Positions 20,760 to 58,819 of a DNA stretch of 64,000 nucleotides are shown piece after piece (position 1 is the stretch's first letter; the number at the start of each line of letters is the position of its first letter). A program made the position numbers and the translations under genes. Source of the DNA: Lenzites betulinus (taxonomy: Eukaryota; Basidiomycota; Agaricomycetes; Polyporales; Polyporaceae); the NCBI GenBank assembly GCA_022264855.1, contig JABYQU010000016.1, forward strand, positions 539,631-603,630, written 5' to 3'. The notes below the pieces were generated by a model. The model saw only the letters and a list, made by a program, of their open reading frames with translations, made no database searches and was not told the DNA's origin.

Positions 20760-22370
20760 CTACGAGCTTGCATCTGCTGACTTGTCCTTGAACACCGCTA
20801 ACCCTACCTGGGCGGCCTCCTCCATCTTCTTCTCCTTCAGCTCGCGGAACTCGCCGCTTGCGCGCCATCCATGCCACGCAGTCTGCTCGCAGACCTCCCA
20901 CCACTCCTCCGCAAACGGGTGGCCGGGGGCGCCCGCATACCCCCATGGCTTTCCGGTGTAGGGCTGGACGAACGGGTTGATCACCGCCGCCATCGTAGGG
21001 TGCAACGCCCCCGTGAAGTGGACGATCTTCGGGTCCTCCATCTCGTCCATCGCCAATGCCTCGCGCTCCGGCGTACGATGTGCCGCGTACGTGCCCAACC
21101 CCTGCGCGTTCCACCGGAGGCTCAGCGGGACCCACTTCCCGTCAAAGTGGACGTTCAGCGCGTCCTGGTCCTGCATCTTCGCGCCCTTCATCGCCGAAGC
21201 GATATCGTTCAGCTCGCCGAGGCGTGCACGAATGGCCGCAAGGTCCATGAGGAGTACGCCGGCGTTGAAGTATGAGGCAGAAGGTCCCTCGGTATGGCCC
21301 GCCGGGAACCCGACGTCTACCGCTGCTGCGATCGGCTTCCCCTGGAGGTCGGTGTCCCAGAGCTCCCTCAGATCGCTTCGGACAAGGACATCTGCGTCAA
21401 GGTACAAGACCCTCTCTACAGGCAGTCTCGGGATCATCGCGATCTTGTCCCAGGTGGGCCCAGGAGGAAGTGCGGACCTGTGCTCGGAGGGGGAAAGATC
21501 GACAAAGACGATGGTAGCATCCACGCCCTCCGGAAGCGACTGTCTCAACTTGTACATCACGTCTTCAGGCAAGCCCGTGTTGGCGACATAAAAGGTGATC
21601 CCTCCCCTCGTGTGCATCGCTGCGCTCCTGATAGCTACAGCGGCAGCGATCGCATAGCCAGCGTCGATCGTGAGCACGACGTTCACGCGATACCCCAGCG
21701 CGCCCTCCAGCCCCTCCTTGGACTCCTCGCCCGCAACGAGGAACCCGATGCGCATCTCCGCCGTCTTCTGGATCACGACCTGCGATTCCGTCTCAGCCGA
21801 GAGCAGCTCGTACTCGCCCCTATGCAGCGCGAGAAACGCGTCGATCCCGCGCTTTGGGTGGTGCATGCTCTCCTCGGGCTCCTTGTCCCAGTGGTAGTCG
21901 TCAAAAATCACGACCGCGCCCTTGCGCGCCAGCCGCCACGCAAGCTCCCCGTCGAGGAGCGTGTCGTCGGCCTCGTGCGAGCCGTCCACGTACACCCAGT
22001 CGTAGCCCGGCCGCGCGGCGCCCATCTCCTCCGTGAGGAGCGCCATGAGTGCGGGGACGCTGAACTGGGCGAGGACGCGGGAGGGCCGTCCGGTGAGCGC
22101 GAGGTTGTGCGTGAGCTTGCGGTGGCGCTCTCGCCCGGCGGCGGTCGACATGAGGTCGAAGTGGTCGATGCAGACGATCTCGCCGCCGTCCTTGCACAGC
22201 TCGGTGAGGAGGAAGACGGCGGAGCGGCCCTCCCAGGAGCCGATCTCGAGGACGCGCGGGCTGGGGGTGGCGATGCGCGGGAAGAGGCCGCGCCATCGAT
22301 CGATGTTGAACGAGAACCAATCTTGGGTCTTGGTGAAGAGGTAGTTTGGGGGGCAGACTTCGTCAGGCAT
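20760..22370 (-). CDS. Fusion: SAM-dependent methyltransferase + GT8 glycosyltransferase
   Basis: An intronless coding exon of 536 residues. The start at 22370 (ACCATGCC context, MPDEVCPPNYLF) is preferred because the upstream in-frame extension lies in a probable 5' UTR intron. Residues about 20-210 form a class I methyltransferase: motif I VLEIGSWEGRSAVFLL, then EIVCIDHFDL, then YDWVYVDGSHEADD and VIFDDYHW, as in the Methyltransf_24 group. Residues about 250-500 form a GT8-like GT-A domain: LYLDADVLVRSDL (the DxD metal/donor site), SYFNAGVLLMDLA, DQDALNVHF and KIVHFTGALHPTM (the GT8 HFxG element). No signal peptide or membrane segment is seen, so the product is probably cytosolic. It is divergent from the epimerase-GT fusion, which suggests co-regulation. 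Donor and acceptor are unknown; O-methylation of a sugar or glycan is the simplest inference. Confidence 0.85.
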   Translation of the reverse strand: MPDEVCPPNYLFTKTQDWFSFNIDRWRGLFPRIATPSPRVLEIGSWEGRSAVFLLTELCKDGGEIVCIDHFDLMSTAAGRERHRKLTHNLALTGRPSRVLAQFSVPALMALLTEEMGAARPGYDWVYVDGSHEADDTLLDGELAWRLARKGAVVIFDDYHWDKEPEESMHHPKRGIDAFLALHRGEYELLSAETESQVVIQKTAEMRIGFLVAGEESKEGLEGALGYRVNVVLTIDAGYAIAAAVAIRSAAMHTRGGITFYVANTGLPEDVMYKLRQSLPEGVDATIVFVDLSPSEHRSALPPGPTWDKIAMIPRLPVERVLYLDADVLVRSDLRELWDTDLQGKPIAAAVDVGFPAGHTEGPSASYFNAGVLLMDLAAIRARLGELNDIASAMKGAKMQDQDALNVHFDGKWVPLSLRWNAQGLGTYAAHRTPEREALAMDEMEDPKIVHFTGALHPTMAAVINPFVQPYTGKPWGYAGAPGHPFAEEWWEVCEQTAWHGWRASGEFRELKEKKMEEAAQVGLAVFKDKSADASS

Positions 22371-23201: not shown

Positions 23202-26200
23202 ATGCCGCTCAACAAAACAGAACTCATCCTCGTAACCGGCGGTCATGGCTTCATCGTGAGTGACACTTTATCGATCCATCCACTGGCTGACCTTTGGACT
23301 CTGCTAGGGAGGTCATGTCGCCCGGAAACTCGGCGAGCTTGGCTACAGATTAAGGGTTGTCGATACAGTCCCTGAGCCCCTCTACGCTGCGCCCCCCGTC
23401 GGCGAGGTGGTCGTGGGGAACCTATGCGACTCCGCATTCGCCGCCCGGGTCGTTGACGGTGTAGGTTACGTCCTGCATTTCGCCGCTACCATGGGAGGTA
23501 TGGGCACTATCCACGCCGCCAACGGCGTCGTCATCTACAAGGAAAACCACACCATGACCGTCAATCTCATCGACGCCTGCGTCGCTGCGGGCACCCGGGG
23601 CTTCTTCTACGCGTCCTCCGCCTGTGTTTATCCCGAGTCTCTTCAGGGTCTGGACACGGACATCTCATTGGCGGAGTCTGACGTGTGGAAGAACGCCCCT
23701 CCCCATCCGCAAGGGCTCTACGGCCTGGAGAAGCTCGCCAGCGAGCTCGTCCTCGAGCAACACCAATCCCGCATGGAGGTCCGCATCGCGCGCTTTCACA
23801 ACGTCTTCGGGCCGCTCGGGTCTTGGTACGGGGGGCGCGAGAAAGTCCCAGCGGCGTTCCTCCGCAAAGCCGTCGCCGCGCAGTTGTCCGGGGATGTCCC
23901 GGCAACGTTCGAGATCTGGGGGGACGGCCTGCAAAGGCGGAGCTTCTGTTTCATCGAGGACGCCGTCGAAGCGGTGCTCCGCCTCCTGGAGTCTGACTGC
24001 AGCGAGCCCGTGAACATAGGCTCGGACCAGGCCGTCTCCGTCCAGGATCTCGCCGATATGGCACTCGCTGTCGCCTCTGTCGACCGCGAGAGCGTGGTGT
24101 TCCGGTACAAAACCGACAGGCCTGTGGGGGTAGGCTCCCGAAACTCGAACAACGCGCTCGTGTCCTCCAAACTCGGGTGGACGCCGCGGCACTCACTGGC
24201 TGAGGGCATGCGTATCACCGGCGACTGGATCCGCTCGCAGACAGTGCAGATGCTCTCCACCGTGGACGACGCTGAGAAGGAGCGACACATCCAGCTCTGG
24301 CAGACTAGCGACGTCGTGGACCTCCAGGCGGATGCGATAACCTTCGCTGTTCTCCTTCCCGTCACATCGCGTGGATCCAACTCACCCGAAGACTGCCTTG
24401 CGAACCTCCGGGAATTCGCTCGATCCTTGCTCTTGACTACGGCCGACGACGTTGCACGGCTTGGCGAGCGATACGCTGTGAAGATCTACATTGCGATAGA
24501 TGACGACGACGAGTTCTTGTGGAAGCCGGATGGCATCAACCGCGTGGAGTCTGTTCTTCGAGAGGAGCGCTTCCCGCCTGAGAGCCTCATTAGCTTGCGC
24601 TGTGAGCATCCGCGAGGGCACGTCTGTGCGCTGTGGCGCGACTGCGCCGAGAGGGCCTACCGCGACAGGTGCGACTACTACATCCTCATGGGGGACGACC
24701 TGATCCTGCAGGACTCGGGCTGGATGTCTGCAATTCACAGGACGTTCAGCGACCTCGCGAGGATGGAGGGTGTTCCGCACGGTATCGGCTGTGTCGCGTT
24801 CACCGACACGTCTTTCCCTGGCATGCCGACTTTCCCTGCTATCCACCGCACCCACATGGATATATTTGGCGGACAGGTCATCCCGGACGTTTTCACCAAC
24901 CAAGACGGGGACCCGTTCCTGTTCCAGCTCTATCGTCGCTGGGGCTGCTCGCGTATGGTCCCTTCTCGCATTTCCAACAAGCTCGGTGGTAGCGGCGATG
25001 CGCGGTACGAGAAGGTCCACGCGTCGGGCTGGACGCTCAAACCTCTAGACGACGCCACGACGGCGGTCGAGGACTGGCTTCGAGTCCATGCACACAAGGC
25101 GGAACGGAAGCTCTCGCTCGACGTGATCGTACCATGCTACCGCGTCAGCATGTTTCATCTTGACATGTTCCTTACTCTTCCCCATTCCCACACTTCGGCG
25201 GTCATGTTTATCATCATCGTCGACGACCCTCAGTCTCCTCGGATCGGCGACCTGGCGCAGAAGTACGGTCACCGACCCGACGTCCGCATCAGAGTCAACT
25301 CGCGAAATCTCGGCGCATCTGCGTCCCGAAACAGAGGCCTTCAAGAGTCGGCAGCCGAGTGGGCCCTTTTCTTAGACGACGATGTAGTCCCCGACGAGGA
25401 CATCCTTCTGGAGGCGGAGAAATCCATTCGCGCCCACCCGAGAGCCGCAGGTTTCGTCGGTAACGCTCAGTTCCCTCTCGCGACGTCTGTCTTCACCACT
25501 GCAGTACATCTGGCAGGCGTTACGTTTTTCTGGGATATTGCGGAGAAGATCGAGAAGGACCTGCCGTGGGGCGTAACGGCGAACCTCATCGCTCGCCGCA
25601 ACGTCCCGGACGCCGTCCAGTACAGTCTCCAGTTTCCCAAGACCGGCGGCGGAGAGGACATCGACTACTGCCGCCAAAAGAGGAAGTATTCGCTCCAGCA
25701 CGGAGGCGAGGGCTTCTGGGCTGCTCCAGCGGTAAAAGTCACTCACCCGTGGTGGAACATGGGTCGCCGGTCCTACTGGAGGTTCTACATGTGGTCGAAG
25801 GGCGATGGCGGACTCGTCAAGCTCTATCCGGAGCACTCCTACCGCGACGTGTCGCCGAATGCAGCGGAGTGCTTGTTTCTGGGCGGCCTCGTTCTCATCG
25901 CCGGATGCGGTATCGCGCTTCTTGACGCCGCCTTGGGCTTCCGCGTCGCGAAGTTGGCGTTGATGTTTTGCCTGGCCGTGACCATCACGAATATTGCGCA
26001 CGACATTGTGCGCCATGCAGTACTTCACCCGGAGCGGACGCGCGGCATGAAGAGTACCGTGACGGGAACGTGGTGGGTATGCGCGATGGTGGAGGGCGCG
26101 GTGCTGCGAATGTTCTCGGAATGGGGTAGGGTCGTTGGGATCTTTGAGCGTCGTGAGTACACAAATTTGCTCCTGCGATTTGACTGGTTCTGTGGGAGGT

Positions 26201-26301
26201 GGGGTGAAGGGCCGAAGCAGGAGGAGATGAGGAACAATCGGACCCGGTTGGCTTGCAGCATCGCAGTTTTTGGGCTTCTGGCCGCGGTGGCTGGAGCGTA
26301 G
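23202..26301 (+). CDS. Trimodular fusion: GDP-mannose 3,5-epimerase-like + two GT-A-like glycosyltransferase domains + C-terminal membrane segments
   Basis: Exon 1 (23202-23255) and exon 2 (23308-26301) encode about 1,015 residues. Residues 1-330 are an extended short-chain dehydrogenase with the NAD motif TGGHGFIGG and ATMGGMG. It closely resembles plant GDP-mannose 3,5-epimerase, with YASSACVYP (Ser122, Cys124), YGLEK (Tyr156, Lys160), RFHNVFGPLGSWYGGREK (Lys197), WGDGLQRRSF and EPVNIGSD. These are the counterparts of the GME catalytic Cys, Tyr-x3-Lys and second Lys. Residues about 345-600 are GT-A-like (YIAIDDDDEF, YYILMGDDLILQDSGW). Residues about 620-860 are GT2-like (LDVIVPCYRV, NLGASASRNRGL, LFLDDDVVPD). 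Hydrophobic segments follow near 870-920 and at the extreme C-terminus. By inference, one enzyme makes an epimerised nucleotide sugar and transfers it at a membrane. Substrates are unknown. Confidence 0.85.
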
Positions 26302-40435: not shown

Positions 40436-41749
40436 CCCGGTGAGAAATGACTATGGGCGCCTAGGGTCTGTTCTGGTGGGATATTGCGGCACGAAGTCCT
40501 TCTGCTGCACTCGGACGGCATCGTGATGAGCGTCTAAGTATTTGACATGTCTTGCTCCTGTTTCGTCTTTGTGTCTCTACATCAACTCGTTCCTGTAGAA
40601 CTAACAGATTTACACCTTGAGTCAAGACCTTATGGGAGCATAGTGTGCCATATATATGCCATGACACAAAAAGTTGTGTGTGCCTTCGAAATTGCGGCCT
40701 TTTTGTGTATCGGCTCTCCTTCGGGTCCCTTGCAATTAACGTTCACTCAAGTTCAACTTGCCCCTCGCACTCTCCTCCCCCTCTCATGTCGCCACCTACT
40801 GCTCTGGCCACGGCCGCCACAACGTCCCCCACTGGTTCATTTCAGACTTTGATTATCTTCCGGGATGAACTTGAGAGTTTTGATTGGCTTGTACCTCACG
40901 GGTATCCAGCAAAGGTGCGTCCTCGCGCCTGCGGGCAGCGGCTCTCGTCAGAAAAACAAATGCAAGGGAATTAGTGAGTCGTTTTTTTGTGATAGGCCAC
41001 AAGATGAGGGAAGGTATCGAGGTGTGTCCATTCCCATTCATCGGGCTCAGTGCAAGCAGCCAGTAGTATATGTGCTCAGTATGAGGTAGGCCGTCAACAG
41101 CGACGCGACGTTGAGGCCGCGAAACCTCTGACAACCTCTGTGCAAGCTGCATCGCGGCCTGTGCGGCTGATATTGATACTTCCAGGCACCCTTGCGTTCA
41201 CAGCTTCATGCGCGAGAGCATACAGGTGCGTCCAGACTCTCAACGATCCCACAGCTTCATGCGCGAGAGCATACAGGTGCGTCCAGACTCTCAACGATCC
41301 CACTACAACCACCTCCACTGTCCCGCGACCCCTTTCCCCGCCTCTCTCAAGGCCGCCCGCCACCGGGTGGCAGTTCAACGTTTCCAGCCCTTTTCATTGC
41401 AGTGGAGGATATCTGGGATCCGAGCAGGGACAGAGCGGGCACGTACAAGGCAGGTACTGGTGAGCTAGCGGGGCGGGGCAAGAGCAGCAGCGGCGAGGGG
41501 CGAGGGCGGGATTGTAGTACTGGGATTTTCGTGTACCATAGGGCCCAATAGATTTGCATCTGCCTATCATATTCAGCCACACCCTGACCCATGAGAGCAT
41601 AATCGAATATATTGCAAGTCCTATACCGCACGAAGACGGTGTATTGCACTATTGCGACATCGGGAAAGTGTTCCCGTTTTCGGCGCCCATCGTGCGGGCA
41701 TAATTTGAGCGCACCAGGCCCTAAGCGCCCATAGCGATTTCTGACCGGG
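40436..41749. mobile_element. TIR DNA transposon, ~1.3 kb, inserted in LINE ORF2
   Basis: The two ends are imperfect inverted repeats of about 33-35 bp with five mismatches (40436-40469 against 41716-41749); both contain a CTATGGGCGC-type core. The flanking sequence CGGGCCTCCTT occurs on both sides (40425-40435 and 41746-41756), so the target duplication is 7-11 bp depending on whether the terminal CCC/GGG is counted in the repeats. The reading frame of the LINE stops inside the right end and resumes beyond the left end. No transposase motif is seen. A short frame (MSPPTALATAATT, from about 40786) is not recognisable. A Mutator-like (9-11 bp duplication) origin is possible. Confidence 0.75.
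41200..41301 (+). repeat. 51-bp tandem duplication (two copies)
   Basis: Copies at 41200-41250 and 41251-41301 are identical. The unit begins ACAGCTTCATGCGCGAGAGC. It lies inside the TIR element. Because 51 is a multiple of three, overlapping frames repeat as well, but none is recognisable. Confidence 0.9.
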
Positions 41750-41756
41750 CCTCCTT

Positions 41757-44700
41757 AGTGATGTCACCAGATCTGAGAGATCGCCACAGAGCAGCCGGTG
41801 TGACCGACACACCTACATCCTCCTGCAGGTCAGCGAGGATTTGCTGGACTCGCCCGTCTGTGCTCGGCCGCGACGGTGTGCGCGACGCTTTCTCCGCTCG
41901 TATAGCGTGGTATGCTAACTTTTGTGACACACAGGACAGTTTCGCACCAGTCAGGGACAGCTCCCGGGGGACTTCAAGGGAGACGTCATCGCGGACTTGC
42001 CGGCTCGCGCCCCGCGCTGCAAGCTTATCCGCCGCTTCATTGGCCGGGTGGCCACGGTGGCCCTTGACCCAGAGGAACGCAGAGTGCGCCCGGCGTGCCA
42101 GGGTCGCGCCTATAATTGCGCGGGTAAGATCTCGATTCTTCTGCATTATGAAGCCCTCGTCCTCATATTTTCTCCTGCGGACAGTGACCGCATCCATGAC
42201 CGTTCTCGAGTCAGTTATTTGGAGGAGGGGGGCCGACGGGGAGCCCCATCGTGAGGCAAGTAAGGATGCTACTGCCTCGCCTGCTTGATTCGTCTGATCG
42301 AGGGACTCAGGGAGGTGTACGCTGCGGTTGCGCGCCGAGTGAGGTGCAAAGAACACGCCCGCTCCGGCACGTGCATCCCGGTGTCCATTGTTGGTGCAGG
42401 AGCCGTCCGTAGCCACCGCTTCGAGTGGGTGGCCATCATGGGTCGCCATGTCCGGGAGGGTGCCAGGTACGCTGGGAGAGGGCTCAAAAACCCGGAAAGC
42501 ATTTGTGAGCGTCCCATCAGTAGTTACGCGGCGGTCGAAGATAACTGGGGTGCCGTCATCAGACGGGAAGAGCTCCGCCGCAGCGGTATGCGCTGCATCT
42601 TCGTAGTCACACGGATGCTCTCCACGCGGGTCCCACTTCGGCGGGAGGGCATCCAGGAACTGCGTCGCCCGTTCATAGCATCGTTGCGGGTCTGTGCATC
42701 CGAGTTCTGATGTCAGGTACGTACACCGGTCGCACCGGCACCCACCGAGCCTCGAGTGCGCCGGGTCACTCACTTCAGCCTCTAGCGCCTCAAAGTCGCC
42801 CACTGTGCGGAGCCGGTGGACGTCCTTAAGGCATGCCGTCGCCGCTGATCTGCTGCCAAGTCTCCGGATCAGCGTTTTCTCTGCCTGGGCATGATCCCAC
42901 ATGGGCATCGCGCGTAGTATGTCCCGCGTGAAGGCGCGGCCTTCGAGGCGCAGCCCAGTGTTTTTCGCGGTGTCGATAATTGCCAGTAGCTCCTTGGGGA
43001 GCCCCTTTCGAAGCGGCCTCCAGTGCTGGAGGAACATGTTTATTCGGAGTTCCGGGTCCGCCGGCGAACATTGCGCGGGCGTGTTGCGGGCGAACAGGTC
43101 ATCCGCCACGTACGCCCACATCGGCCGCTCCTCAGAGAAGTTGAGGTACTCCTTGAGCCAGACCACGTCAATCGTGTCATTGCGCGTCGTCAGGTCAAGG
43201 AGGCCAAGGCCACCGGCCTCCACGGGCAGAAGCAGTTGGGCAAAATGCACAGGGGGTGAGTGTTTGTCGTTCCAGAGGTACTTCCGTGTTAGTTTGCTCA
43301 GTCGTTGTATAACAGGCTTCGGCATGCGCTGCGTGTCTGTCAGGAACTGCGACATTCCCCCAATGATCATTTGGACGACATGTCGCTTTCCTTCCAGAGT
43401 TGGGCGCGAGCGGGTCCATTTGGCGACCACCGCGCTTATTTTCTCAATCTTCGGGAGCCATACGCCGGCTTCGTCCACACCGTTCCCGAACCATGCTCCG
43501 AGGATGCGGACGGCTTCGCCGTCCTTGACGAGGTGGACATTCCTCGGGAGGTTCTGCCACGCCCCCGTTTCTTGGTACGTCCTCAGGACCTCCCCGCGGT
43601 AGGCAGGCGTTCCGATGGGGATGATCTCTGTCTTGCCCAGGTTGAAGCGCGCCTTTGCCGCAGCACACCACGTATCGAGGATTCCCTGGAGTACCGCGAA
43701 ATCATCATCAGACGACAGGTACACCGTTGTGTCATCTGCAAACAGCGTGGCCTTCAGCGCCGTGGCGCACCTTGGTATGTTCAGGCCGTGGATGTCCCCT
43801 AATCGTATCATTGCTGACAGAGGCTCTATCGCCAGGTCGAAGAGTAGGCAGGAGAGTGGGTCACCCTGTCGTACTCCTCGGGTGACCACGTATGGTGAGC
43901 TCAGGGTCCCATTTACCATCACCGATGTCTCAGCGCCGTTGTACATAGCCTGCACCGTCCGCACAAACTGCGGTGGGATCCCCATTCGCGCAAGCACACG
44001 CCAGAGGTAATCGTGGGCTATTTTATCATACGCCTTCTCTTGGTCGAGCGCCACGATAAAGCCATTTACTTCATTTGTTTCTGCCCAGTTTATCATGAGT
44101 CGAGCAAGCTGGGTGTGATTACGGAGCTTTCGGCCGGGGATGAAGCCTGCCTGCGCGGGATCTACAAGCTCAGGGGCAACTGCAGCAAGGCGCAGCGCGA
44201 GAACCTTCGACAGGAGTTTGTAGTCAGTGTTCAGAAGGGTGATCGGGCGATAGTTGACTATCTTAGAGCGTTCTCCTTTCTCCTTGTATATTGGGGCCAT
44301 CCATCCTTCCGCAAATGGGACGGACGGAGCAATGCCTGACTTCTGGACGTCGAGTAAGGCTGCCGAGAGGAGTTTCATGATATCCATTGTCAGTCTGCCC
44401 TCATGCCTCCTGTCCTCTAGGTACTGCTCATGGAGTGTCTTCCAGACCTCGTATGGGAGTCCATCGCGTCCCGGGGCCGTACCCGACTTCGAGTGCCGCA
44501 GCGCAAACTCACATTCTTCGTAAGTGATATCCGCTCCAAGTTGCTGCGTTTGCTCATGCGCAAGCGTTGCTTGGATGCTGTTCAGCGCTACTGCAATGCA
44601 TCTTTCTCGTTCAGCCGCAGGCGGGACACCGCCCTCATCGCGTTGTATCGAGTCATGGTGTGCTCGGGCCATCTCCGCCATGCGGTCAGAGTCTGTCTCA

Positions 44701-44951
44701 TACTCGCGCGGTGCGTCATCGTTTGCTCCCTCCGCGTGCTGGCGTTCAAAGGCGAGGATCAGGTCCCTTGGGGCAATCGGTTTGTGGAGCCTTGACCAGT
44801 ATTTCGTCGGCCGCTCGCCTTCAAGATGGTGTTTAGCACGGCTAGTCACCTGCATCTGGTGGACTCGCTGGACTTTGAGGTTTGTGATCTTCTGCGTTAG
44901 TTTCGTGACAACGGCCGCGCGCTCACGCTCAGTCAGGTCCGAATCACTCAT
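41757..44951 (-). pseudogene. LINE ORF2: reverse transcriptase and RNase H
   Basis: The minus frame runs from ATG at 44951 to an artificial stop at 41721 inside the inserted element. Reverse transcriptase motifs are intact: NYRPITLLNTDYKLLSKVLA, GFIPGRKLRNH, VALDQEKAYDKI, GVRQGDPLSCLLFDLAIEPL and LFADDTTVYL (the FADD catalytic box). RNase H follows with VATDGSC, GEAVASLLAS, ITDSRTVMDA and VKGHRGHPANEAADKLA, giving the full D-E-D-H-D set. The frame is continuous with the endonuclease upstream except for one TGA (+ strand 45024-45026). It would copy element RNA at the target site. The C-terminal zinc region is displaced by insertions, so the protein from this copy would be truncated. Confidence 0.88.
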
Positions 44952-45023
44952 TACTCGCGCGCGCTCAGCGTCAAGCTCGCTGACTTCAGCGAGGAGCTTT
45001 GGGACAGTCGCTTTTTTGTGCGC

Positions 45024-46016
45024 TCACGCTTGCGCCAGCCAGGTTTGTTTCAGGTTGAGGAGGATGGTTTGGGGGTTGTGTGCGTCCGATCGCTCGCCCT
45101 GCGTAAGTAGGTCATCGAGTTCTCTCAGCGATCGCATACCTGCATCCTTCATCTGTCTCGCTAGCGTCCGATTTTTCAGGAGATGCAAGGGGAACGTTGG
45201 GCGGCCCTTACCAACACTGGGGGCGTTCGCCATCGTGACTTGGACAGCGACCATGCTATGGTCTGTTTTTACACCCAGGGTGATGATCTGCCAGTCGTGG
45301 CAGCGGGCGAAGATATCGCGAGTGCAATAGATGCGGTCAAGCCGCGAGCACACCGCCGCATCCCCGGTTCCCCGGTGGAAGGTGTAGCTGCGCGATGTTG
45401 GGTGGGTCATCTGCCACCCATCGGCGAGCATCAGACCGAGGGCTTCTTTAAGCATGTCGAGGTCCTCGAGGGATGCATCTGGGTTGGACTCAGGGAGACG
45501 ATCCAGGCGATCTTCTACATTATTAAAATCACCTGCCATGATGTGTGGGCGGGGAGTCGTTGGGTGTGTCTCGTAGAAACTGCGCACGTCGCGAAAAAAG
45601 GCACGTCGCTCCTCTGTACCATCGGAGGTTGGCGCATACATGCACAGGGTGTGGAGGGGGTCGCCACTGCGCGTGGTGACAGACACCTGCAGCGCTCGGC
45701 CAGGGACAATTTGCGTGACTTTCGCGCCATCGGCATTGATCTGCGCTTTGTTCAGGACGACTGCAACACCCTCTTTCCGCGTCGGCGCGTCAGGATGCGC
45801 TGAGTAGAGTACCTTAAGGCGGCCTTTGAACATTCGTTTTATGTCGGCGCATCGTTCCGCCGTCAGGTGAGTTTCCTGCAGTAGGAGGATGCCAATCGAA
45901 TTTTGCTTTATCGTTCTGTACATGGTCCCCCACTTGTTATCCAGGTGCTCTGGGCAGAGAGACCCAAAGCCATTGATGTTTAGCGAGGCCACTTTTAATG
46001 AGGTGCGCTGTGCCAT
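45024..46016 (-). pseudogene. LINE ORF2: apurinic-type endonuclease domain
   Basis: A 330-residue frame starting MAQRTSLKVASLNINGFGS. The exonuclease/endonuclease/phosphatase motifs are all present: LNINGFG, LLLQETHL, VAVVLNKA, MAGDFNNV, SRLDRIYCT and VKTDHSMV. This domain nicks target DNA in LINE retrotransposition. The frame ends at a TGA (GCG-TGA-GCG context), beyond which the same frame stays open into the reverse transcriptase. The stop could have arisen by a C-to-T change at a CGA codon. Confidence 0.87.
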
Positions 46017-46804
46017 TCGGTCGGCTCTGCGATGCGGGCGCGGCCCGGGGGGCTCAGCTATGTGGGCATTGGGCGCTGCCCTCGGGGGCTGGTGGGGTTC
46101 GCGCAGGCGGCTGTTGTCCCGCCGTGGGTCTACGCCCCTAGGGGGGGGGGGTGTTCTGGGGCCCTCCCGGGCCCCTGCACTGGGTTGCTATGCCCCATGT
46201 TCCGCAGCTCATTTAGGCTGGGGTGCGCGTGCGGCCGTGGGCCGCCGCTCAGGACATTCGCCCCGTCACCGCCCTGCATCGAGGACAGCGGCCTCAGAGG
46301 AGGTCGGACGGGCTCGGGGGCAGCCGCGCACAGCCTCCTCCGTGGCCTCCCGCTGTCCAATTCGCCGCTCTGGTCACGAGGACGGGGGGCCGCAGGTTCG
46401 CTCCCCGTCCTTCGAGAGAGCGTCGCCGCGTCGCCGGTGCCATGTTGATTACCGTCAGAGTGGGTTGTATTTTCAGTAGGTGTAGTTGTGTTCGTCGCAA
46501 TTTTGCTCCCTTAGGACTTGCTAGGCCATAAGATCGTAGCGGGGGTTTGGCGTAAATATCCTTCCGTGGTACGCCATTCCACGGGGTGTGATTTGCTAAA
46601 GGGAGAAAGAACGGGGGCCACCTCCACCTGTTGAGCGCCGGGATGTCAGCAGGGGGGGGTGGCAGTCAGTATACATTCATTTTTGGTCCTGTTGTGTGGG
46701 ACGGTCACACAGGTTCCGGCATGGAGGAGAGAGAGTCAAGACAGATGTCTCGTGATTATCGGGGGGGGCTATCGTATGCAGACGTAGTTACAAGACGGTA
46801 GTTA
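46017..46804 (-). other. LINE spacer between ORF1 and ORF2
   Basis: About 790 bp, GC-rich near 46020-46440 and containing long G/C homopolymers (for example 11 G at about 46141). Minus-strand frames here are short, Pro/Arg/Gly-rich and broken. It may be an eroded N-terminal extension of ORF2 plus the inter-ORF spacer. Confidence 0.45.
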
Positions 46805-55992: not shown

Positions 55993-56281
55993 ATGCAGTC
56001 CGCCAATGGGGATGTGGACCGGTCGCTCGGCTTGGTACGGAACGTGCCTTTCGCAGTGGCGGACATTGTCTTGTACCTGCAGGTGCACGTCATTCGTCAT
56101 GCAGCCTACGACATCCTTCTGGGTCGGCCCTTCGACGTTTTGACCAAGAGCGTCGTCAAGAACTTCACTAACGAGGAGCAGACCCTGACCATCGTGTGCC
56201 CGAACATGGGGACGATCGCGACCGTGCCCACCATCGCGCGCGGGCGCGCGCGCTTTCGCGCTTCTGACGCCGGACATCCCC
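55993..56281 (+). pseudogene. gypsy aspartic protease, C-terminal half
   Basis: The frame begins MQSANGDVDRSLGLV and contains AAYDILLGRPFDVL, the retropepsin C-terminal I-L-G-R block. It is the continuation of the segment that ends at 50851. A frame change near 56240, in a GCGCGCGG run, separates it from the pol frame. Confidence 0.7.
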
Positions 56282-58819
56282 TTGGACAGCCAGCCCTTGC
56301 TTGAGGTCCCAGATGGCGAGATCGCATGCGTAATCACTGTAGACAATGGCGTGCCGCGCATCACGTCGTATACCCCGACTCCTGATCCATCTCTGCCTCT
56401 TTCCGCGCTCTATTTCTCTGCCTGCGACGCACTACCTATAGAGGTGCTATCTCTGCTCGACAAACTTGAAAAACCACATGGAGACGCACCGCGCGCAACC
56501 CCTTCTCCCTCTACGCCCCTAAAACCCCATGAAGACGCCTATAGCGCGCGCCCACCTCACGTCTTTGTTCCGTCTATGTCCAGTTCTGCTCCTCTGGTCG
56601 CGTCTATGTCTCCTCTAGGTTCCTCTCAGTCTCAAGGGCTCCCTAGCCCCTCTACTCCCAAGGCGGGCGCAACCCCAGCCACCAATACCCCCGTGCGCGA
56701 CCCAGTGTTATCGCGCGCGGAAGACACCGCGCGCTCGACTTCCATTGCGCGCGACCCCTCGCGCGCGCATCCAACGCGCGCGCCCGCCAAGGCCAAGCTG
56801 GCCTACGCATCGCGCGACCCCTCCCCACCACCGACATGGACTTACCGCGCGAAGCCAATACGTTCGGGCGTACTTACCGAGGCGTACATCTCGGCCAAAA
56901 AGAAGTACAAGCCGGTCGCGCGCAAGGTTCGCCCGGTCCTCGGCACGTCGCCTGAACACTTTCGCATCGAGCGCAACATCACAGGCGACCCTCTCGCGAG
57001 CATACCGCCGCTCAGTCCTCACCCACCCGCGTTTGTACCGACGGGCCGCTATACGCAGGAGCGCATGGAGGCCGTCGACAAGGCTCACGGCGACGGCTTC
57101 CTCTGGCCAGAGGAACAGAAGCTCCTTCATCACTTCTTTAGCCAGCAGAACGAGGCCTTCGCGTGGAATGATGACGAGCGCGGGTGCTTCAAACCCGAGT
57201 TCTTCCCTCCTGTGGAGTTTCCGGTGGTCCCGCACACGCCCTGGGTCGAGCGCAACATCCCCATTCCTCCAGGACTCTACAAGGAGGTCTGCGACATCAT
57301 CAAGAAGAAGATCGCGGCCGGCGTGTACGAGCCATCCAACTCCTCCTATCGCTCGCGCTGGTTCTGCGTCCTGAAGAAGGACAAACACTCCCTCCGTATC
57401 GTCCACAGCCTAGAGCCGCTCAACAAAGTCACTATCCAGCATAGCGGGGTGCCTCCTACACCCGACCACCTCGCGGAGCAATTCGGAGGGCGCCCGTGTG
57501 GTTCCATCTTCGATCTCTATGTCGGCTATGACGAACGGCTCATCTCAGTCACTTCGCGCGACCTCACCACCTTCCAGACTCCCTTCGGCGCGCTGCGCCA
57601 TCGTACCCTGCCTATGGGGTGGTGTAATTCGGTTCCTATCTTCCATGACGACGTCACGTACATCCTGCGCCTCGAAATCCCTCATCTCACCATTCCTTAC
57701 ATCGACGACGTACCGGTCAAAGGTCCCGCGACAGACTACAAGCGCGCGGATGGCACCTATGAGACCATTTCCGCAAACTCCGGTATCCGCCGCTTCGTGT
57801 GGGAACACTTCCAAGACGTCAATCGCGTCACGCAGCGCATGAAGTACACAGGAGGCACTTTCTCAGGGACCAAGTCGATGGTCTGCCGGCGAGAGATTAT
57901 GGTCGTCGGGCACCGTTGTACACCCGAAGGACGTCTCCCCGAGGAGACGCGCGTCGAGATCGTCAAGAATTGGGGCCCATGCAAAGACCTTTCCGAAGTG
58001 CGCGCGTTCCTGGGCACCATCGGGGTCGCGCGCATCTTCATTCGCAACTTCGCGCAGCGCGCGCACGCGCTGGTCCACCTGACGCGCAAGGACGTACCCT
58101 TCGAGTTCGGCGAGCCGCAGCGCGCGGCCCAGCGCGACCTGATCGACGTGCTACTGGCCTCTCCAGCTTTGCGCGCGCTCGACTACGAGTCCGAAGCGCC
58201 AGTGATCCTAGCGGTAGACACGTCCTACATCGCAGCGGGCTTCCATCTATGCCAGTGCGACGAGGAGGACCCGCGAAAGCGCTACTACGCGCGCTTTGGA
58301 TCGATCACGCTTAACGAGCGCGAGGCACGCTTCTCCCAGCCCAAACTCGAGATCTACGGACTGTATCGCGCGCTGCGCGCGCTCAAGCTGTACCTGATTG
58401 GCGTGCGCAACCTGATCATCGAGGTCGACGCGCGCTACATCAAAGGAATGCTTAACAACCCGGATATCTCACCCAGCGCGAGCATCAATCGCTGGATCGT
58501 CTCCATCCTCACCTTCCACTTCGAGCTCGTACATGTTCCAGGGACGTCTCACGGCCCTGATGGGCTCTCGCGACGGCCTCGACACCCAGGGGACCCGAGC
58601 CCATCGATGACGAAGATGACTTCGAGGATTGGATCGACAACCTACACGGGTTTATCCACCACATCCTTCCATCGGCAGCTCTCCACCGCGGCCCAACTCT
58701 TTCCTTCACCACTCTATTGTTTGCACTGGGCCTGCCGGCACTGGCCGAGGACGGCACAGATTTCAGTGGGGGGAGGAGTTAGAGCTCAGAGCGGATTCAA
58801 TGGCGCGCGCGAGCAGTAG
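56282..58819 (+). pseudogene. gypsy pol: reverse transcriptase and RNase H
   Basis: An 845-residue frame starting MDSQPLLEVPDGEIACVITV; the methionine is probably internal to the polyprotein. Reverse transcriptase spans about residues 340-560: YRSRWFCVLKKDKHSLRIVH, FQTPFGALRHRTLPMGWCN and the catalytic box PYIDDVPV (about residue 473). RNase H follows at about 630-740: VILAVDTSYIAAGF, FSQPKLEIYGLYRALRALK and VEVDA-like IIEVDARYIKGM. The YIDD box replaces the commoner YVDD/YLDD; the two Asp are present. After HGPDGLSRR the frame drifts into other sequence. The enzyme domains look intact although the element as a whole is defective. Confidence 0.8.

Follow-up and report, generated by a model that had tools for sequence, protein, structure and literature searches.

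What does a domain resembling the plant GDP-mannose 3,5-epimerase (GME) do in a mushroom-forming fungus, at the head of a chain that runs on into two glycosyltransferase domains? Plant GME converts GDP-mannose to GDP-L-galactose, and a gene of this composition lies in the window analysed here, a 64-kb stretch of DNA from Lenzites betulinus (Basidiomycota, Agaricomycetes, Polyporales). The first-pass annotation had described an epimerase, two GT-A domains and a membrane anchor in one protein; all of them do lie in a single reading frame after a single intron, with the fold and the anchor being predicted, and the residue numbers it gave for the epimerase domain were exact. The spliced product has 1015 aa and is identical to the public protein P0003, which very likely annotates the same contig and so provides no independent check of the splice. 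The features of the gene and of its surroundings are compiled in Table 1.

Table 1. Features of the GME-GT1-GT2 fusion gene and neighbouring frames in the 64-kb window.
Feature	Position	Strand	Remarks
Fusion gene	23202..26301	+	two exons, 18 codons + 997 codons + stop
Exon 1	23202..23255	+	residues 1-18; the GME Rossmann fold begins here; MPLNKTELILVTGGHGFI
Intron, 52 nt, GT...AG	23256..23307	+	splits the NAD-binding glycine motif GGHGFI^GGH
GME domain, remainder, residues 19-340	23308..24273	+	GME-diagnostic residues matched
GT1, GT-A-fold domain, residues 360-612	24331..25089	+	D416, D419, GDD 480-482, NQDGD 549-553 conserved
GT2, Glycos_transf_2 domain, residues 616-860	25099..25833	+	D657, DDD 708-710, ED 801-802
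Membrane hairpin (predicted), residues about 866-919	25849..26010	+	hydropathy and predicted helices
Tail-anchor-like C-terminal helix (predicted), residues about 995-1015	26236..26298	+	hydropathy; predicted helix 986-1014
Methyltransferase-GT8 gene	20760..22370	-	Methyltransf_24 + GT8 (LgtC-like)
Retroelement frame	41724..46187	-	reverse transcriptase/RNase H + endonuclease
Retroelement frame	56189..58816	+	RT_RNaseH

A whole-protein search, in which the 7994 candidates sharing most words with the query were scored at lengths of 0.55-1.75 times its own, yielded 404 proteins with E values of 1e-3 or lower. The best 120 of these 404, which include the Lenzites protein itself in first place, are 52-100% identical to it, and domain profiles recover the order GME-GT1-GT2 in all 120, so that the three-domain order proposed for search in other basidiomycetes is kept in every relative of this set. 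An artefact or a wrongly fused gene model is ruled out by this conserved order and by the open exon of 997 codons, and separate mRNAs for the individual domains are unlikely because the single reading frame is conserved. Elsewhere in the 37.4-Mb Lenzites genome, the sole further match to the fusion is a stretch of 62 residues (E 1.1e-5).

The Agaricomycetes with the fusion span at least five orders, namely Polyporales, Agaricales (Amanita), Boletales (Suillus), Hymenochaetales (Rickenella), and Cantharellales (Tulasnella). Neolentinus, Auriscalpium, and Jaapia, among others, also carry it and presumably belong to further orders. No named fungus from outside the Agaricomycetes is among the matches listed for the fusion, for GME alone or for GT1, sets in which fully named entries are a minority and of which two comprise the best 120 matches. 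The protein family is real and widespread within the Agaricomycetes. When the GME domain alone served as query, GT1 was also carried by 10 of the best 120 of 2502 matches. Stand-alone GMEs may exist in fungi: among five short GME matches, the sequences of P0123, P0124, and P0125 run on into GT1, but P0135 (Lentinula aciculospora) and P0144 (Suillus spraguei) stop inside the GME domain or shortly beyond it. In L. aciculospora, the GME (P0135) and the glycosyltransferase part (P0244) are annotated separately, each on a contig of 1,370,632 bases, which is either a split gene model or a gene fission. The S. spraguei protein, GME-like and 306 aa long, lacks the stretch bearing the second catalytic Lys as well as the glycosyltransferase part, and may be a copy in decay or the result of poor gene modelling.

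The analysis of the epimerase domain indicates an extended SDR Rossmann fold with its glycine motif, in which S122, C124, Y156, K160, N183, K197, R229, and R296 are the GME-diagnostic residues. The catalytic triad S122, Y156, and K160 corresponds to S143, Y174, and K178 of the Arabidopsis enzyme (At), whose residues were mapped through the PDB chain, with a chain index 2 ahead of the native numbers. Among the best 120 of the 404 fusion relatives, the acid-base couple is kept almost without exception (C124, At C145, in 119 with one gap; K197, At K217, in 120), and R296 (At R306, which acidifies the Cys), R229 (At R243, the diphosphate Arg), and N183 (At N203) are each present in 120. The top NCBIfam model for the fusion is that of GDP-L-fucose synthase (GER), which is likewise an SDR with a Cys acid, at 69.5 bits, far under the cut-off of 500; in GER, however, a His is the base and a Lys acidifies the Cys, whereas the Lenzites domain has K197 and R296 in those roles. 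In aligned structures the fungal domain shares about 42-43% of its residues with the solved GMEs, and the matches listed for a fold search with the whole predicted model are to its epimerase part. Score, predicted fold, and diagnostic residues all back the original assignment to GME rather than to another epimerase or dehydratase family, and the domain probably acts as an epimerase on GDP-mannose.

What distinguishes the Lenzites protein from the known enzymes is its architecture. The solved Arabidopsis chain (PDB 2c54/2c59) is a stand-alone enzyme of 379 residues, whereas the Lenzites GME forms the first third of a membrane-anchored fusion of 1015 aa with two glycosyltransferases. The bacterial and cyanophage GMEs (Thalassobaculum, Azospirillum, Skermanella, Methylobacterium, and phages S-SCSM1 and Bellamy), which are 36-41% identical to the Lenzites domain, are also encoded by separate genes, unlike the fusion, and a glycosyltransferase gene directly adjoins GME in three of the five annotated bacterial or phage loci (Thalassobaculum, Skermanella, and Bellamy). 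At the phage Bellamy locus (L123, 1950-4551), the GME-like gene is followed directly by two glycosyltransferase genes, comparable functions in unfused form.

To place the fungal domain among its relatives, a careful tree of 58 rows was built. The fungal GMEs form one clade (100/99) on a long branch of 0.8 changes per column. Eight GER, GalE, RfbB, and UXS rows separate from the GMEs and fungi at 89/89, where long branches meet; the placement in another family that would have counted against GME did not appear, a result that the long branches make tentative. The best tree then sets the fungi, with weak support (78/71), as the sister group of the remaining GMEs, again with long branches meeting. 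AU tests did not reject a grouping of the fungi with plant, algal, and protist GMEs (p 0.66), with four green-lineage rows (p 0.20), or with bacterial and phage GMEs (p 0.41), and the first of these trees surpassed the free tree, which had missed it, by 8.8 log units. The named bacterial GMEs are thinly sampled in this comparison, and one scan of genomic contigs with a single query sequence gave four distant epimerases. A quick tree had placed the fungi outside the plant, algal, and protist clade; the AU tests give no support to such a separate origin. Since the fungi form one clade and none of the donors tried is rejected, the trees point to a single origin of the GME domain in the sampled fungi and single out no donor; horizontal acquisition, raised at first reading, is possible.

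The identity of about 42-43% to the solved GMEs and the long branch of the fungal clade mean that the substrate or the product may have shifted. The best-surviving alternative, which we nevertheless regard as unlikely, builds on this: the fold and residues of GME would be kept, and the enzyme would either yield mainly one epimer, GDP-D-altrose or GDP-L-gulose, or take a related GDP sugar as its substrate, for instance a 6-deoxy-mannose derivative, serving a mushroom-specific glycoside or glycolipid. Besides the branch length, it is favoured by a fungal precedent, as an ascomycete reportedly uses GDP-6-deoxyaltrose in the biosynthesis of sordarin. Against it, both acid/base residues and the acidifying Arg that double epimerisation calls for are retained in 119 to 120 of the best 120 of 404 relatives.

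The transferase part of the protein comprises one unclassified domain and one of a familiar type. GT1 has a predicted GT-A fold with a DxD-type motif; no Pfam family matched the Lenzites domain, and a profile of GT1 found nothing among PDB sequences at E 1. An F-box match of one of eight GT1 members (E 0.61) was taken as chance. A GT1 search limited to short proteins found 41, with 25-71% identity and with Earliella, Lentinula, Tulasnella, and Ephemerocybe as named sources, and 39 of them (without P0274 and P0281) were used to build the GT1 model. Several of the distant ones carry GT1 beside a GT2-type domain with no GME in the available piece. Such is the arrangement in the metagenomic proteins P0256, P0258, P0264, and P0275 (35-39% identity), which come perhaps from other eukaryotes that possess the transferase pair alone, or are exon fragments.

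GT1 has fold matches among viral proteins. Its top ones in BFVD are the giant-virus GT-A proteins A0A0N9QZS9 of Chrysochromulina ericina virus and E3T529 of CroV (E 9e-17, 20% identity), and P0256 matches phrog_14945, annotated as "glycosyltransferase" (E 5.6e-9); the Lenzites GT1 itself has no match in PHROG. Viral contigs scanned with the GT1 alignment gave 84 pattern-matching stretches, none of which was confirmed, and scanning with a distant metagenomic relative of GT1 gave one partial locus (L104). A scan of the 99 non-Lenzites loci, nearly all of which surround bacterial, phage or viral-contig epimerases, turned up no GT1-like frame; its reach was limited, as it also missed the distant relative in L104. 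Many of these loci carry GT2-type frames.

GT2 fits PF00535 at 48.2 bits, compared with a gathering score of 23.3, and its D657, DDD 708-710 (DxD-type), and ED 801-802 are kept in all of the best 120 of 404 relatives. Against the PDB it has weak matches to 3bcv, TarS, a diNAcBac-PP-undecaprenol glucosyltransferase, and DPM synthase (E 1.3e-5 to 0.016); unlike those GT2-family enzymes, it comes after a second GT-A domain and an epimerase. In a comparison bearing on which of the transferases takes the epimerase product, WrtF was tied with UDP- and TDP-using enzymes.

Hydropathy and the structural model agree on a hairpin and a tail helix, both C-terminal to the catalytic domains. Upstream of the hairpin, 19-residue windows exceed the hydropathy threshold only at 354 and 638, and these are probably buried strands because in the model they lie next to GT1 and GT2 strands. 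With the predicted helices at the C-terminus and neither a hydrophobic signal nor a membrane segment ahead of the catalytic domains, all three domains should face the cytosol, which is where GDP-mannose is made.

Divergent from the fusion gene, with 831 bases between the likely start codons, lies the methyltransferase-GT8 gene, which is single-copy and is another two-enzyme sugar fusion. A shared glycan pathway for both genes is possible. Elsewhere in the genome, on contig C50 (C50:264403-267574), a multi-exon gene resembles GDP-mannose 4,6-dehydratase (GMD), its best exon scoring 326 bits; on the same strand, at a distance of about 1.2 kb, there are exons weakly similar to GDP-fucose synthase (60.8 and 51.3 bits), the second of which has two stops inside the matched stretch. 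None of these matches reaches its cut-off, the cut-offs being set for whole proteins. Given these GMD-like and GER-like exons, GDP-fucose is probably made by dedicated enzymes in Lenzites and the fusion would serve something else; the weak step is the assignment of the exons as the GER of this genome, because the GDP-fucose synthase model scores the fusion (72.7 bits) above them.

The literature that we searched names no such enzyme in fungi. A survey from 2021 that covers the nucleotide-sugar enzymes of 491 fungi (PMC8092308) lists the interconversions found; in its main text, "GME" and L-galactose each have 0 occurrences, and GDP-L-galactose is absent from the interconversion lists examined. 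A review of GDP-mannose 3,5-epimerase (GM35E) gives an alga, two plants, and a bacterium as the sources of characterised enzymes and notes the activity in a snail; it contains no word starting with "fung". In the accessible text of the open-licence PMC literature, which mostly leaves out the older carbohydrate chemistry, we found no description of a fungal GME and no L-galactose as a component of a basidiomycete polysaccharide. The mentions of L-galactose found there concern chemical standards, substrates in assays, inhibition of lectins, sugars of plants or algae, feeding of yeast, or, in the name "6-deoxy-L-galactopyranose", fucose. Two findings come closer: binding of red cells by Rhizoctonia hyphae is inhibited by L-fucose and L-galactose, which is only suggestive, and a metabolite table for Inonotus hispidus names 1-O-(3,4,5-trimethoxybenzoyl)-beta-L-galactopyranose, the sole L-galactoside given for a mushroom in this literature, by a metabolomics annotation in which the L form is perhaps not fixed (PMC9399111). 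The protein family is undescribed in the literature searched, and represents a GME in a new architecture.

We consider it reasonably probable, from the domains and their conserved residues, that the membrane-anchored fusion makes GDP-L-galactose (or the L-gulose or D-altrose counterpart) and passes it to an attached glycosyltransferase. The protein would be a bifunctional, perhaps trifunctional, sugar-nucleotide epimerase/glycosyltransferase, in which the GME domain would bind NAD and oxidise GDP-D-mannose at C4, the Cys124/Lys197 pair would epimerise C5 and C3, and back-reduction would give GDP-L-galactose; GDP-L-gulose or GDP-D-altrose may also arise, either as the main product or alongside it. 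Before this rare product equilibrates back, it would be used by one GT-A domain at least, and the same acceptor may receive a second sugar from the other. Given catalytic domains that should face the cytosol, likely acceptors would be lipid-linked glycans, glycolipids, or polysaccharides that are extruded across the membrane.

It is improbable that the product is instead released to a soluble pathway, for ascorbate analogues or catabolism, the fusion having no channelling meaning. Fungi make ascorbate analogues and ascorbate glycosides (PMC4396506), and a dehydrogenase of Coprinopsis can oxidise L-galactose and L-gulose as free sugars in vitro, which is only suggestive (PMC4332668); however, the fusion is conserved in all of the best 120 of 404 relatives, opisthokonts use GULO for ascorbate and fungi other routes (eLife, PMC4396506), and fungal D-erythroascorbate is derived from D-arabinose (Polyporales review, PMC7998620). 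A GME domain that has no catalytic role and serves both transferases as a scaffold or regulator is very improbable, for its diagnostic catalytic residues hardly vary, where relaxed selection would have let them change, even though GT2 is the better conserved domain (mean identity to the Lenzites protein 69%, compared with 56% for GME, over the 49 other members of alignment A1).

Transfer of the epimerase product to an attached transferase thus remains the reading that we favour, with fair confidence. A more elaborate version is tentative: mushroom-forming fungi would possess a dedicated L-hexose branch of their nucleotide-sugar metabolism, in which the fusion builds a disaccharide cap containing an L-sugar on a lipid or wall glycan at the cytosolic face, with GT1 founding a GT-A family shared with giant viruses, and this branch would have been overlooked because its enzyme is fused to glycosyltransferases.

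The recurrence of the same fusion across mushroom-forming fungi suggests that these organisms make and attach an L-sugar that has not yet been described for them. If so, a sugar nucleotide not predicted for fungi would be produced throughout a large class to which edible and wood-rotting mushrooms belong, and would be both made and used within one chain. Predictions of the composition of mushroom walls and glycolipids would change, a ready fusion catalyst for rare L-sugar glycosides would be at hand, and GT1, an unclassified glycosyltransferase domain, would become a target for study.
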